Part shown: one piece after another, positions 25,879 through 31,512 of the stretch | How the letters are laid out: the number at the start of each line of letters is the position of its first letter | Numbering within the stretch: position 1 is the first letter of the stretch | Assembly: GCF_001953745.1 (NCBI RefSeq) | Contig: NZ_LWLN01000001.1 | Span: 2,852,001-2,916,000, forward strand | Direction of reading: 5' to 3' | DNA: 64,000 nucleotides | DNA from: Natrinema saccharevitans | GTDB taxonomy: Archaea > Halobacteriota > Halobacteria > Halobacteriales > Natrialbaceae | Notes under the pieces: model-generated | Databases searched by the model: none | What the model was told of the DNA's origin: nothing | Seen by the model: the letters and a program-made list of their open reading frames with translations, nothing else | Position numbers and translations under genes: made by a program

Positions 25879-25952
25879 GGGCCAATAGCTCAATTAGGTT
25901 GAGCGCCACTCTGATAAGGTGGAGGCTCTCGGTTCAAATCCGAGTTGGCCCA
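25879..25952 (+). tRNA. tRNA-Ile (GAT)
   Basis: Cloverleaf with acceptor GGGCCAA/TTGGCCC, D arm GCTCAATTAGGTTGAGC, anticodon stem CCACT/GGTGG with loop CTGATAA (anticodon GAT), T arm CTCGGTTCAAATCCGAG and discriminator A. Its 3' 14 bases are repeated at 30486-30499. Confidence 0.95.
25939..25952 (+). repeat. Attachment site repeat (tRNA side)
   Basis: TCCGAGTTGGCCCA forming the T-stem/acceptor end of tRNA-Ile; partner copy at 30486. Confidence 0.8.
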
Positions 25953-26111
25953 CTCAGCTTCTGAACGCTTCTTAGACACCCGATAACGCCAGGTTTAGCG
26001 CCCAACAGTTCCGTTCACGGCGTTCGAGGAAACGGGTGCCCCCTCGATTTCGCCGCTTAGTTGAATCACTTCTGAACGCGGGTCGCCTCCGTCTTGGGAT
26101 TCCGATTAGCC

Positions 26112-26855
26112 GGCACTGTCTAGTTGAGCCAGTTTGAGAAGTGAGCAGGTCGTACTGTTGAGTTGGTTGATGCTCGCAGACCTGCTCAGCGAGAGTTATG
26201 AGACGGATTTAGAAGAATCTTGGGAGAACGAGCGGACGGCGACGCCCGTCAGGGCGTTCGCCGTCCGCCTCCATCAGACCGGTTGTTCGCTTCGAGAGAC
26301 AACAACGATTCTCGCTGAATTAGGCGTTCAACGCTCTCACGGGGCGGTTTGGAACTGGGTTCATCGGCTAGCTGACAGCGGACGCGACCCGCCTGAGGCG
26401 CAGCCGAAGCGGGTCGCCGTTGACGAAACCGCTGTCAAGATTAACGGCGAGTGGTCTTGGTTATACGCTGCAATAGACACCGAGACAAAGTTGATTCTCG
26501 ATGTTGCGTTATTTGGGCGGCATGGCACCGATCCGGCGGCTGCGTTTCTCCATCGACTCACCGAGAAACACGATCTCTCGGATGCTGAGTTTCTCGTGGA
26601 TCAATTCAGCTATCGGACTGCCCTTGCTCGATTAGGATTGAGCGGTCAGGTCAACTATACCGACCGAAACCTCATCGAAAAGTGGTTTCACACCCTCAAA
26701 ATGCGTATCGACCGCTTCCATAACTCGTGGGTGGGCAGTCGGTCGAGCGTCCGCGAGTGTCTTGAACAGTTCATGCATTACTACAATCATCAGAGACCGC
26801 ATCAAGCTCTCGATGGAAAGACGCCGATTGAGAAGGTTCAGAACTATACAGTGCC
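26112..26855 (+). mobile_element. IS6-family insertion sequence
   Basis: Terminal inverted repeats GGCACTGTCTAGTTG (26112-26126) and its near complement ending at 26855 (GGCACTGTATAGTTC read inward) enclose the transposase gene. No 8-bp target duplication is visible (GATTAGCC left, AGTGGACC right), so an adjacent deletion or recombination has occurred. Confidence 0.75.
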
Positions 26856-26889
26856 AGTGGACCTATTGAGTCGTTTCAACGCCAAGTGA
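26170..26889 (+). CDS. IS6 family transposase
   Basis: A 239-residue DDE transposase of the haloarchaeal IS6 type. An N-terminal helix-turn-helix region (LHQTGCSLRETTTILAELG, 35-53) is followed by the catalytic residues D85 (VAVDETAVK), D144 (FLVDQFS) and E170 (NLIEKWF), all intact. YYNHQRPHQALDGKTPIE near the end is typical. I chose ATG 26170 (MLADLLSESY); a TTG at 26134 is possible. The reading frame runs 34 bases past the right terminal repeat, so the last residues come from flanking DNA. Confidence 0.9.
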   Translation: MLADLLSESYETDLEESWENERTATPVRAFAVRLHQTGCSLRETTTILAELGVQRSHGAVWNWVHRLADSGRDPPEAQPKRVAVDETAVKINGEWSWLYAAIDTETKLILDVALFGRHGTDPAAAFLHRLTEKHDLSDAEFLVDQFSYRTALARLGLSGQVNYTDRNLIEKWFHTLKMRIDRFHNSWVGSRSSVRECLEQFMHYYNHQRPHQALDGKTPIEKVQNYTVPVDLLSRFNAK

Positions 26890-26990
26890 CTCATCGGAAC
26901 CGATGATCGGGTTGTATGTTCCCGTCTTTCGTACCGATTGTCAAATAGCGTACCTCAAAGTACGATACTCTGAAGTATGGTTATGGGAAG

Positions 26991-27000
26991 TATTATATTT
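26991..27000 (+). promoter_or_regulatory. TATA box of the DUF234-type ATPase gene
   Basis: TATTATATTT 22-31 nt before the ATG at 27022; this favours that start over the in-frame ATG at 26977 lying before the box. Confidence 0.6.
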
Positions 27001-27021
27001 GGCACTGCCGTATCGGAGACT

Positions 27022-28413
27022 ATGCCCGGGTTCGTGAACCGAACGGAGGAACTTTCGCGCCTTTACAACCTCTACGATTCAGATAAGGCGGAATTGGCGG
27101 TGATTTTCGGACGACGACGACTCGGAAAAACCGAACTCGTCAAGCAGTCCCTCAAAGGATACGACGACGCGGTTCTCTATCAAGCGAAGCAAAAAACGAG
27201 CGCACTACAGCTCCAGCAGTTCGTCGAGGTCGCTTCGGACGCGTACCCAGGAATCACGCGGATCCGCGAAGAGTGGGAGTCTATCCTCGGGTATCTCGCA
27301 GATCAGGATGCGATCGTCGTCCTCGACGAGTTTCCGTATTTGGTCGAACAGGACGAAAGCCTCCCCTCCGTTCTGCAGGCGATGTTCGATCACGAACTCG
27401 ACGACTCCAGTGCCACGTTCCTCCTCGTCGGCTCGTCGATCAGTATGATGGAAGAAGCCGCGCTGTTGGGAAACAGCCCCCTGTACGGCCGCTCGTCGTT
27501 GAAACTGGATATCAGGCAGCTCCCGTTCGATGCGGCGATGGAATTCTTTCCGCAGAGCTACACGGCTGACGAGCAGACATTGACGTGGGGAGTCTTCGGT
27601 GGCGTTCCGTACTATCTCGAAGAGGTGGATCCAGAGGGCGATCTCGGCGAGAATATCCAGCGAACGATCCTCTCACGCCACGGAACGCTGCACGACGAAC
27701 CAGACTACGTTCTCCGAATGGAACTCACGGAACCGACGCGGTACTTTTCGATTCTGGAAGCGATTGCAGGCGGAAGCACGAGTCGAAACGAGATCGCCGG
27801 AGCGACGGGTATCGATTACAATCAACTATCGAAATACGTGAATCGGCTCTCTCGGTTGCGACTGGTCGATCAACACGTTCCGGTTACCGAACAAAAGGAG
27901 CGGACCAAGCGAAGTCGCTACCGCATCCGTGACCAGTTCTTCCGGTTCTGGTTCCACTTCGTCTACGGGAGCGGAGACAGATACGAGGATTTTGGAGACG
28001 AAGCGTACGAGACGCTCATCGAGCCGGAGCTCGCGGACTTCGTAAGCGACTCGTTCGAGGATCTCTGTGGTTCCGCTCTTCGAACGCTGTATCCCGAGTA
28101 TACGATCACGGACGTCGGTCAATGGTGGTATCAGGAGCACGAGGTTGACGTCGTGGGTCTGACGAACGAGGACGCGCTGATCGCCGGAGAGTGCAAATTC
28201 CAGCGGTCACCGTTAGACTACGACGCGTTCTCGAAGCTTCAAACTCACGTGGATGAACTTCGATGGACGCCATCCGGAGGCGGAGAGCGGAAGCACGAGT
28301 ACGCGTTGTTCTCTCGAAGTGGCTTTACGCGGGCCGTAGAGGACGCCGCGACGGAACGAGATAATCTGCGGTTGTTCACCGTCGACGAAGTCGTAACAGC
28401 GCTGAAATCATAG
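27022..28413 (+). CDS. Archaeal ATPase with DUF234-like C-terminus
   Basis: A 463-residue P-loop ATPase of the archaeal ATPase_2 (PF01637) plus DUF234 type. FVNRTEELSRL (4-14) is the family start, Walker A GRRRLGKT is at 30-37 and Walker B IVVLDEFPY at 98-106; a winged helix (NEIAGATGIDYNQLSKYVNRL, about 250-270) follows. The C-terminal region with DVVGLTNEDALIAGECKFQ (about 370-390) matches a PD-(D/E)xK-like core (D...E-x-K), so it may be a nuclease. Such proteins are common on archaeal mobile elements and may act in defence or stability. Their true role is unknown. Confidence 0.85.
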   Translation: MPGFVNRTEELSRLYNLYDSDKAELAVIFGRRRLGKTELVKQSLKGYDDAVLYQAKQKTSALQLQQFVEVASDAYPGITRIREEWESILGYLADQDAIVVLDEFPYLVEQDESLPSVLQAMFDHELDDSSATFLLVGSSISMMEEAALLGNSPLYGRSSLKLDIRQLPFDAAMEFFPQSYTADEQTLTWGVFGGVPYYLEEVDPEGDLGENIQRTILSRHGTLHDEPDYVLRMELTEPTRYFSILEAIAGGSTSRNEIAGATGIDYNQLSKYVNRLSRLRLVDQHVPVTEQKERTKRSRYRIRDQFFRFWFHFVYGSGDRYEDFGDEAYETLIEPELADFVSDSFEDLCGSALRTLYPEYTITDVGQWWYQEHEVDVVGLTNEDALIAGECKFQRSPLDYDAFSKLQTHVDELRWTPSGGGERKHEYALFSRSGFTRAVEDAATERDNLRLFTVDEVVTALKS

Positions 28414-28653
28414 CTGCAAGTGTCGTCGAATTAACTACTCCACGAGACGATCACCTCTCTAAATACCCTCGCTGCTGTTCCAGTATCGTTTTCTCGCTCC
28501 GCTTGCGTGGTGAATTTCGAGAGCTTCGGTACTGACGCTCACCGGCTGCTGACGATGACCAGGGGGCTATCTTAGATGAGATTGCGGTTGAGCCACACCG
28601 TTTTCCAGAGACGGCTGACTTCCTAAGTGCGATGGGGGGGACCAAGGACCCGT

Positions 28654-29310
28654 ATGTGCGATGATGACGGCGACGAATTCGTCGATATCCTACTGGAGTG
28701 GTACGCTGCCAATGGACGTCACGATCTCCCCTGGCGCGATCCGAGCACCACGCCGTTCGAGATCCTCATCGCCGAGTACATGCTCCAGCAGACGTCCGTG
28801 GAACAAGTTCTCGGCGTCTACGAAGAGTTCGTGGAAAAGTACCCAACGCCGGCGTCGCTTGTCGATGCGGAATCCGACGAGATCGGTGAAGATCTCGAAC
28901 CACTCGGCTTGCACAAGCGGACGGCGTACATTGAGAGAGCATCCGAGCAGATTATCCGACAGCACGACGGTGAAGTGCCAGACGCGTTGGACGAACTTCT
29001 CGACCTACACGGGGTCGGCGAGTACACGGCGGCGTCGGTACTTGCTCACGCCTACGACGGTGATATTGCAGCCGTAGACACGAACGTTGCGAGAATACTC
29101 GCTCGCGTGTTCGGCCTTGAGACGGAAGACAAACCCGATGCGAGGGAAAACTGGGAACTCGCGGAGCGCTTAGCACCGCCGGGTAGGTGCGGAGATTTCG
29201 TCCACGCGCTCATCGACTTCGGCGCGAGCGTCTGTACGGCGTCGAACCCAGGCTGCGAGGGGTGTCCGGTGAACGGACTCTGCGAGTACGCTGATGCGGA
29301 AGACGACTAA
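28654..29310 (+). CDS. Mig-like T/G-mismatch DNA glycosylase (HhH-GPD, 4Fe-4S)
   Basis: A 218-residue helix-hairpin-helix glycosylase. LPWRDPSTTPFEILIAEYMLQQT (25-47), the HhH LDLHGVGEYTAASVL (116-130), the catalytic Asp142 in VDTNVARIL, and an Fe-S loop with Cys194, 201, 204 and 210 (C-x6-C-x2-C-x5-C) are all present. The residue at the endonuclease III lysine/MutY serine position is Tyr124, as in the Methanothermobacter Mig thymine-DNA glycosylase; the C-terminal region also follows Mig and stops there with no MutY NUDIX-like domain. Mig repairs T opposite G formed from 5-methylcytosine. No methyltransferase gene is in the element. The ATG at 28654 is preferred over GTG 28627. Confidence 0.85.
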   Translation: MCDDDGDEFVDILLEWYAANGRHDLPWRDPSTTPFEILIAEYMLQQTSVEQVLGVYEEFVEKYPTPASLVDAESDEIGEDLEPLGLHKRTAYIERASEQIIRQHDGEVPDALDELLDLHGVGEYTAASVLAHAYDGDIAAVDTNVARILARVFGLETEDKPDARENWELAERLAPPGRCGDFVHALIDFGASVCTASNPGCEGCPVNGLCEYADAEDD

Positions 29311-29382
29311 AAACGAATTAACGCAGGTGCAGCGGTAACTTGAGAAGCGATCCGGCTAATAAATCGGAGAGGGGTAACTCGA

Positions 29383-30375
29383 TCAGATGTTATCGAGGTA
29401 CGAGCGTCGCTGCTCCAACTTCACCTCCTCAGATCGTCGGTCGTAGTGCTTGTCCAGAATTTTCCGACTAACGTCCATCCGGTCGCCAACCACTTCGGTC
29501 GGAACGTCTTTCGTCAGAAAGTGGGTGATGCTCCCTCGACGAACCGCGTGAGGCGTCACCGACTCGGGACACTTCGCTGTCGTTCCGCGCTCGCAATCCG
29601 GACACTCCAGGTTTCGAAAACAAGGTGCGGTAACGTCGTAGATGTACCGTCGAACGGTACTCGAAGCGAGACGACCCTCGCGGCTCGTCAACAGCGGTTC
29701 GCGGCCGACATCATCGGTCTGTTCGGGACGCGTGTTCTCGATGAAGTCCTCTACGAGGTACGCGAGATCGGGTGAAATCGCCACGAGTCGTTCGCCACCG
29801 ACGCCGTTCTTTAACGGCGTCCCGGTCTCGGGTCGGTGTCTCAGGCCCAAGAATCGGTCCTCCAGATCGACGTCTTTCAGATCAATAGACCTGGCAGCGC
29901 CCATCCGCATCCCGGTCCCCCATAGCAGCGCGAGCAGGACGTGTTTGGTCGACGCGTAGTGAAACTCCGCGAGGTACGCGAGGATTTCCTGCGCATTGTC
30001 GGCTTCGAGTAGTTCGTCGCGCTGTTGCTCCTCTGGCGGCACCTGCGGGACCATGACTTTGGTGTGGAGGTCCGGATCGACCGCCTCGATCGACCCTCAC
30101 CAGCGGAGGAACACGCGGATCGCACACATCTGCGTCTGAAGCGACACGGTGTTGAGGTCACCGTCCTCCTTCCGCCAGAGGCGGTACTCGTGCACGTGCC
30201 GTCCCGTGAGGTCGTTCATATTGTCGATGCTGTTCTCGTCGCACCAGCGGACGAAGTGGTTCGTTCGATAGCGGTGGCCGCGGACGGTCCACTCCATCGA
30301 CTGCGTCTCCTTGTGGTCGAGGTAGAGTTTCTGCGCGGTGCGCGGATCGATCGGTTCGAGATTGTCATTTTCCAT
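29383..30375 (-). pseudogene. Tyrosine recombinase/integrase interrupted by an in-frame stop
   Basis: Reading from the ATG at 30375 gives an integrase N-terminal (SAM-like) domain, MENDNLEPIDPRTAQ to IRVFLRW, then TGA at 30097-30099, after which the same frame continues through GSIEAVDP and the catalytic domain to 29383. In that domain GTGMRMGAARSIDL (first Arg), HAVRRGSI (H-x2-R) and DKHYDRRS (Tyr nucleophile) are intact. One nonsense change, not a frameshift, divides it. Total length would be about 330 residues, normal for such integrases. It is next to the distal attachment repeat and belonged to the tRNA-Ile element. Read-through cannot be excluded. Confidence 0.85.
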
Positions 30376-30485
30376 GACTAGATATGGTTTTCCTCGGAAT
30401 CCCAACCTGAAGGAAACCACCCGACTACGACCGGTTGACAGAAGCGTTCAGTCACTGAGCGGATCTGTAATTCGTCTGAATTATT

Positions 30486-30499
30486 TCCGAGTTGGCCCA
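30486..30499 (+). repeat. Attachment site repeat (distal)
   Basis: Exact 14-bp copy of the tRNA-Ile 3' end, outside any tRNA gene; the bases before it (TT instead of AA) end the identity. Confidence 0.75.
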
Positions 30500-31512
30500 T
30501 ACTTTTGCGGCGAGTACCCTCGCGAGCCACGGCTCCGGAAGTCGACTCGTCGCCTTCTCCCCACGGACTAACACTACTGGACAGCAGTCGATACGCCGCC
30601 GGTCGCGAATTCGCAGTCGTTTCCACCGGTGACGACCGCACGCGGCGACCGGCGTCACGTGGTTCTGGCCGGCGGTCGCGAGCCACACGGATCGACTGCC
30701 ACAGTCCGCATCTCGAGGCGACGGGCCGTGAGCCAGCGGGCGGTTCAGCTGGAGCCGATCGACAGCAGTGGCTGTTCAAAGAGTCAGCACACCTTACGCG
30801 AACGCGACGATCCACGGTCGGTCCTCGATACCCGCCGCACGGTCGGCCGCGTTCTCGAGAGCGCGTCGGCACATCGGCCCGTTTCGGCAACCGGCCGATC
30901 CCGAGACGGAGCTGATACTCAGTCCAAAGCAGATGAGGGAGGGTAGAAATACCAGATTCATATACAAATACGAAAATATAGATTAGATAAAGTGTAGTAG
31001 TCCCTACACCTCATACATAGAGATGGATCCGTGTCTATTATGGCCCAAACGCGCGGGATCCACCGAAAAGAGGAAACTGTTCTCAAAGTAGATTGGATAT
31101 CATCAGTGAACGATAGCGACTATAGTAGACACGATATAAGGCTATTTTAGACCAATAATCGACGTTCTTGGCGATGAATAGAACGCAGGAGGGCGGTAGT
31201 ACACGAATCCTGATTAGATTCAGATATAGTCGAATTTCTAGTATGTTCGGGGCGGTCGATGAATCGTCGGAACCGAGTCGGTAGATGCCATCAGTCCCTG
31301 CACCGGTCCGGGACCGACACGATGCGGTACGGCGAACGCACGCGGGTATCGCTCGGTGCTGGAGAAACGATCGGTAGCTCCCGTCCGACAGCCGGTTTCG
31401 GATCCGCCACGATTCGCCGATTCGGTACTCGCGGATGGCGGTCCTCCCGTCGAACGGGCGGGCCGATGGACCCAGCCGAGGGTTTATACGATATCCCGCG
31501 GCCAAGCGGGGT
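30500..31512. other. Gene-poor stretch beyond the integrated element
   Basis: About 1 kb with no gene I can support. The first 440 nt are GC-rich with many overlapping frames on both strands but no family or start signals; 30,930-31,250 is strikingly AT-rich with no clear palindrome. It may be old flanking DNA of the tRNA-Ile site. Confidence 0.5.

Follow-up and report, generated by a model that had tools for sequence, protein, structure and literature searches.

Why should a small integrated element in a haloarchaeal chromosome carry a DNA glycosylase gene and no DNA methylase? Mig-type enzymes are regarded as handling repair for restriction-modification (R-M) systems that methylate cytosine, and the initial annotation of the window (the whole 64,000-nucleotide stretch of DNA analysed here) had read the product of this gene, P0001, as a Mig-like thymine-DNA glycosylase, perhaps left over from such a system. 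We consider it probable, with considerable room for doubt, that P0001 is a glycosylase of the T(U)/G type, monofunctional, which travels as cargo of integrase elements and is not an R-M repair arm.

The glycosylase gene and its product

The reading frame lies exactly where it had been annotated, and has the following features:

28654..29310, + strand: HhH-GPD [4Fe-4S] glycosylase P0001, 218 aa, an intact ORF ending in a stop codon
28627, + strand: alternative in-frame GTG start, which would extend the protein by 9 residues
28774..28776, + strand: Glu41, equivalent to the MutY general acid Glu43; in MutY, Mig-type and clade proteins alike, and not discriminating
28909..28911, + strand: Leu86, at the position of the MutY wedge Tyr88 (human Tyr179), from the 100-protein alignment
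29023..29025, + strand: Tyr124, where endonuclease III has Lys, equal to MutY Tyr126, from the 100-protein alignment
29077..29079, + strand: catalytic Asp142 (MutY Asp144), found in all groups
29203..29205, + strand: His184, at the MutY Glu188 position, from residue counts by group
29233..29283, + strand: [4Fe-4S] cysteines Cys194, 201, 204 and 210, from the Pfam match and the alignment

P0001 is short (~220 aa), consisting of an HhH-GPD core with [4Fe-4S] cysteines and no C-terminal domain, and it matched the Pfam models HhH-GPD (1.9e-16), HHH (4.5e-07) and EndIII_4Fe-2S (1.3e-04) above their cut-offs. When its AlphaFold2 model (pLDDT 94.3) was searched with Foldseek, MutY cores and Mig (PDB 1kea) ranked together at the top, and of these leading matches Mig had the best mutual fit (TM 0.91/0.91, rmsd 1.7 A). 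The protein is 89% identical to its homologue in a second genus (genome G121) and belongs to a clade present in 24 of 392 genomes, which is spread over several haloarchaeal families and forms two subclades; because of this identity across genera, and because the 24 clade members align over nearly their full length, a chance origin is excluded. The gene is intact in the window and in G121, dN/dS between these two copies is 0.21, and the values for eight pairs of clade glycosylases are 0.14-0.32. Therefore, P0001 is a genuine, intact HhH-GPD [4Fe-4S] protein under purifying selection. Since the host genome also encodes a 310-aa MutY and a 230-aa Nth, together with a further 297-aa relative, P0001 is not the housekeeping MutY.

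An integrated element at a tRNA-Ile gene

The gene lies within an element that has the following features:

25879-25953: tRNA-Ile, from a tRNA search
25939..25952, + strand: att copy TCCGAGTTGGCCCA, 14 bp, at the tRNA-Ile 3′ end
25953..30499, no strand assigned: integrated element of 4547 bp at tRNA-Ile, from empty-site comparison with genome G004
26134..26889, + strand: IS6-family transposase (NF033587, 1.5e-59), a later insertion, absent from the G121 element
26977..28413, + strand: ATPase_2/DUF234 protein, matching the PADLOC candidate defence family PDC-S27
29383..30420, − strand: tyrosine integrase (PF00589, 1e-11), with an in-frame TGA at 30097-30099
30486..30499, + strand: second att copy TCCGAGTTGGCCCA, at the element end away from tRNA-Ile, from empty-site comparison

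The empty site is found in a sister genome of the same genus (G004, locus L295), where a 95% identical flank passes straight from 25952 to 30500; the bounds of the element are therefore 25953-30499. An integrase gene, a tRNA target, direct att repeats and the empty site of a relative were thus all found, as expected of a tRNA-integrated element. In the G121 genome, from another genus, this element occupies the corresponding tRNA (L075) but lacks the IS6 copy, the alignment resuming at 26866. Its integrase is broken at a codon other than that of the window's TGA and is apparently frame-shifted as well, and the glycosylase is intact in both. Because the integrases are broken at different codons, the two elements died independently, and the glycosylase can outlive the mobility of its element.

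The repeat search used found no direct att repeats around five other loci. Separately, in several relatives (L296, L299, L300, L301 and L303) the tRNA-Ile 3′ end recurs as a perfect copy ~120-140 nt downstream of its first occurrence, and these extra copies are apparently att sites left behind by elements that had inserted there before.

Linkage to integrases and not to cytosine methylases

HMM scans covered the surroundings of four sets of loci: the clade (29), haloarchaeal Mig-type genes (13), other Mig-type genes (28) and MutY controls (29). A tyrosine integrase lies within 3 kb of the glycosylase in 15/29 clade loci, as compared with 2/13 haloarchaeal Mig-type loci, 0/28 other Mig-type loci and 0/29 MutY controls. 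Conversely, a C5 methylase lies within 5 kb in 9/13 Mig-type loci of haloarchaea and 25/28 of the other Mig-type set, and in none of the 29 clade loci or 29 MutY controls. The Fisher p-values (5e-6 for integrases, clade versus MutY; 2e-13 for methylases, 0/29 clade versus 34/41 Mig-type loci) overstate the significance because the loci share ancestry; the pattern nevertheless holds across both subclades. In ~12 clade loci the glycosylase abuts the 3′ end of the integrase gene, in either orientation and mostly at less than 100 nt, and in five (L076, L105, L106, L107 and L111) it is flanked by two integrases. The elements of L106, a locus of the second subclade, L107 and L111 have an intact integrase. 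The clade, then, travels with integrase genes instead of the DNA-methylating enzymes of its Mig relatives.

One genome (G080) has two clade glycosylases ~6.4 kb apart (L077:6971-7603 and L077:13341-13985) with an integrase near each, and in one of the two the N-terminal part is missing or frame-shifted. Mig-type genes beside C5 methylases are common, for example on Caldicellulosiruptor pCALKR01 and in Halomicrobium urmianum. A second haloarchaeal Mig-type group, N-terminally longer (L085, L117, L168, L175, L176 and L178), was also noted; for five of its six members, L117 being the exception, a C5 methylase is no more than ~350 nt away.

Other cargo and a possible role in defence

Might the glycosylase itself be a weapon, such as the toxin-like enzyme against foreign DNA for which the initial annotation allowed? 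The ATPase_2/DUF234 gene lies upstream of it in the window, G121 and G122, and the non-integrase neighbours of the clade include PDC-S27 ATPases (3 loci), PDC-M05A nucleotidyltransferases (5 loci), Fic (2 loci), PD-Lambda-3_A (1 locus) and an McrBC protein. In four loci the nucleotidyltransferase and a 160-aa protein directly precede the glycosylase, and in a fifth the nucleotidyltransferase does so alone; the three genes form an intact, operon-like trio on one strand in L078:8812-10662, L103:8601-10434 and L104:8047-9890. The 160-aa protein had no Pfam match, and our guess is that it and the nucleotidyltransferase form a nucleotidyltransferase/HEPN-type toxin-antitoxin pair. Because neighbours of the MutY controls also match PADLOC models (AbiE, mad3 and Csx1), the excess of defence-type genes is modest; they appear to be of more kinds near clade genes than near MutY, which is suggestive only, the control not being clean.

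We regard it as unlikely that the enzyme is directed at viral or plasmid DNA, where it would strike a modified or mispaired base, together with defence-type genes and in the manner of Brig1. The neighbours listed above and the operon-like trio would fit such a role, for which Brig1 provides a bacterial precedent (PMC11078745), but besides the modest excess over the controls, the active site is of the canonical repair type, the viral contigs searched contained no clade member, and Brig1 belongs to the UDG superfamily, which has a different fold. In a similarly doubtful extension, the glycosylase would work in partnership with the integrase or element (or excise bases as an antiviral weapon) and have its own substrate, which might be a modified pyrimidine of halovirus DNA, read by a clade-specific His184/Lys88 pocket; it would then be an archaeal, HhH-superfamily counterpart of Brig1.

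Relation to cytosine methylation

It is correct, as initially annotated, that the element contains no methylase. A check of the host genome found two full-length C5 methylases (C1:2235892 and C1:2239081), ~640 kb from P0001, and an additional split or divergent one on C3. The full-length pair (L056, G000:C1:2227000-2245000) lies ~2 kb apart on opposite strands with no adjoining HhH glycosylase.

On this basis P0001 could be a true Mig of the V.MthTI type that has lost its methylase and endonuclease and now mends 5-methylcytosine deamination caused by methylases elsewhere. The host, with its two full-length C5 methylases, has no other Mig-type gene; Mig 1kea is the best profile match of the clade; and the PADLOC REase_II ("nicking endonuclease") model, 221 aa long and probably Mig-type, matches P0001 at 4.5e-38. 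Judging from its length and its equal matches to Mig-type genes, we take this model to have probably been built on Mig-type proteins, and the identity "Type II nicking endonuclease" was rejected for that reason. Against this history, in neither subclade does any clade locus lie within 5 kb of a C5 methylase, whereas such neighbours are the rule for both sets of Mig-type loci; furthermore, C5 methylases occur in 11/24 genomes with the clade and 141/368 of the others (392 genomes; Fisher p 0.52), with no enrichment. Because both neighbours and genome-wide co-occurrence are missing, the orphan account misfits the lineage, and we consider it quite unlikely for P0001. The related proposal, that P0001 repairs deaminated 5-methylcytosine made elsewhere, is possible in the host genome but finds no counterpart in co-occurrence across the 392 genomes.

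Residues that separate P0001 from MutY and endonuclease III

Residues were counted in an alignment of 100 proteins (24 clade, 38 Mig-type and 36 MutY rows, with Nth also included). Tyr124, Asp142 and the four cysteines are present as annotated, and had been taken to exclude MutY. However, Tyr occupies the Tyr124 position in all 24 clade proteins, all 38 Mig-type proteins and 35 of the 36 MutYs, the equivalent Tyr126 of Geobacillus MutY is itself catalytic (PMC10993402), and Asp142 and the Fe-S cysteines are common to essentially all proteins aligned. Because MutY has the same residues and Nth has Lys, this set rules out endonuclease III only. With Tyr124 in place of the lyase Lys of bifunctional endonuclease III, P0001 is most likely monofunctional. 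In Mig, replacement of the corresponding Tyr by Lys is reported to confer lyase activity.

The verdict that P0001 is not MutY stands, on other grounds than those first given: the features that DISCRIMINATE P0001 from MutY are Leu86, His184, the missing C-terminal 8-oxoG domain and its place in the tree. In Gs MutY, Gln48 and Tyr88 are wedged into the DNA, with Tyr88 linked to the 8-oxoG reader Ser308 (PMC10993402, PMC12871665), Glu188 bonds adenine N6, and Glu43 is the general acid (PMC12871665). The P0001 equivalents of Gln48, Tyr88 and Glu188 are Gln46, Leu86 and His184. First, the Tyr88 position is Tyr in 36/36 MutYs, Leu in 23/24 clade proteins, and Leu (27/38) or Phe (9/38) in Mig-type proteins. 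Second, the Glu188 position is His in 22/24 clade proteins, N/Q/E in 36/36 MutYs and L/F/Y in 37/38 Mig-type proteins; because this His is the residue of neither MutY nor Mig, the base removed could be something else. Third, the C-terminal tail measures 0-15 aa in the clade versus about 87-111 aa in haloarchaeal MutY. At Leu86, Leu44, Ala40, Asp188 and Phe189 the clade and Mig-type proteins agree and haloarchaeal MutY differs; P0001 retains the Gln-Gln-Thr of MutY.

Two further marks were rejected: VDTN (versus VDGN) as a sign of Mig, because haloarchaeal and bacterial MutYs carry VDTN too, and the lack of the C-terminal domain, taken by itself, as proof that P0001 is not MutY, because short bacterial sequences retain the MutY Tyr. 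Gemmatimonadetes MutY homologues (L229, L238, L240, L243, L253 and others) seem to stop just past the Fe-S motif and so apparently lack the 8-oxoG domain, although the wedge Tyr is present in them.

A third lineage of haloarchaeal glycosylases

Does P0001 nest within MutY? In a maximum-likelihood (ML) tree, the 24-member clade (support 96/89) lies outside MutY (36 rows, 100/99), and it still does so (clade 100, MutY 99) when bacterial MutYs are added. Among the best 80 matches in a scan of 84,980 species, clade members occurred in Halobacteria only, and all ~69 bacterial matches retain the MutY Tyr; bacterial homologues at 40% identity were accordingly rejected as clade members, all being MutY by residues. 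Viral contigs searched yielded no clade member, and phage records only matches of 38% or less. By these comparisons the P0001 clade is a haloarchaea-only lineage outside MutY, and a previously unremarked one.

Its kinship beyond this point is evenly balanced. An AU test gave p 0.66 for the clade with Mig and 0.64 for the clade with MutY, and the overall HMM scores for the two are a near tie. The best solved structure for the clade profile is Mig 1kea (186.8 bits vs 171 for MutY), and in a single-sequence search P0001 scores 143.5 bits with Bst MutY vs 130.1 with Mig. Because the trees and the near-equal HMM scores leave kinship with Mig and with MutY alike, we call the clade a third lineage beside these two, and the trees would fit a position nearer either. 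The Mig-likeness proposed initially is thus borne out by the residues, but membership of the Mig family is not established by the AU test or HMM scores; the third lineage probably works like Mig. That P0001 is a short, divergent A/G (MutY-like) glycosylase is improbable: it keeps the MutY catalytic set Glu/Tyr/Asp/Asn, it matches the NCBIfam mutY model (E 2.3e-56), and Gemmatimonadetes seem to have short MutYs that lack the C-terminal domain, but its 191 bits fall under the model's cut-off of 286.5, for which reason the mutY identity was rejected, Tyr88 and Glu188 are replaced by Leu and His, the clade lies outside MutY in the ML trees, and a full MutY is encoded in the same genome.

Proposed activity

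By analogy with Mig, P0001 most likely acts on T or U mispaired with G. Carried beside the integrase of small integrative elements, the enzyme would flip the mispaired base into a site formed by Glu41, Tyr124, Asp142 and Asn144, where Glu41 would protonate or activate it and Asp142, Tyr124 and Asn144 would stabilise the oxocarbenium. The product would be an AP site, made without lyase activity and taken over by a host AP endonuclease, possibly to the benefit of the host or the element. P0001 lacks the machinery that MutY uses to recognise 8-oxoG and to hold adenine.

A lineage of this apparent Mig sister type, tied to tyrosine integrases and with no methylase link, raises the question of which mismatches or modified bases have to be removed for the sake of these elements. 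Because the clade includes Haloferax massiliensis, whose genus is genetically tractable, both biochemistry and genetics should be feasible.

Comparison with known systems

The element shares with SNJ2-type haloarchaeal elements its integrase domains (PF00589 with PF02899/PF13495) and the presence of a short att where the tRNA gene ends (3′), matching their published description (PMC8371274). This likeness is one of domain make-up and att site, and the window element differs in having no viral structural genes. The cargo also differs: clade elements carry the glycosylase with an ATPase or a nucleotidyltransferase.

Among enzymes, P0001 shares with endonuclease III (Nth) the HhH-GPD and [4Fe-4S] architecture, but has Tyr124 for the lyase Lys and only 28% identity in the structural alignment. 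With MutY/MUTYH it has in common the catalytic Glu-Tyr-Asp-Asn, Gln-Gln-Thr and the Fe-S motif, at ~40% identity to the Bst MutY core; it differs in lacking the 8-oxoG (NUDIX-like) domain, in Leu for the wedge Tyr88 and His for Glu188, and in lying outside the MutY clade. Similar in size and fold is Mig of Methanothermobacter (1kea), a thymine-DNA mismatch glycosylase of 221 aa (vs 218; TM 0.91, rmsd 1.7 A), which likewise has Tyr in place of the Lys, Leu where MutY has Tyr88, the Fe-S motif and no C-terminal domain. P0001 nevertheless shares only ~35% identity with Mig, has His and not Leu at position 184 and Gln45-Gln46 in place of Arg-Arg, and belongs to a separate clade that never stands beside a C5 methylase (0/29).
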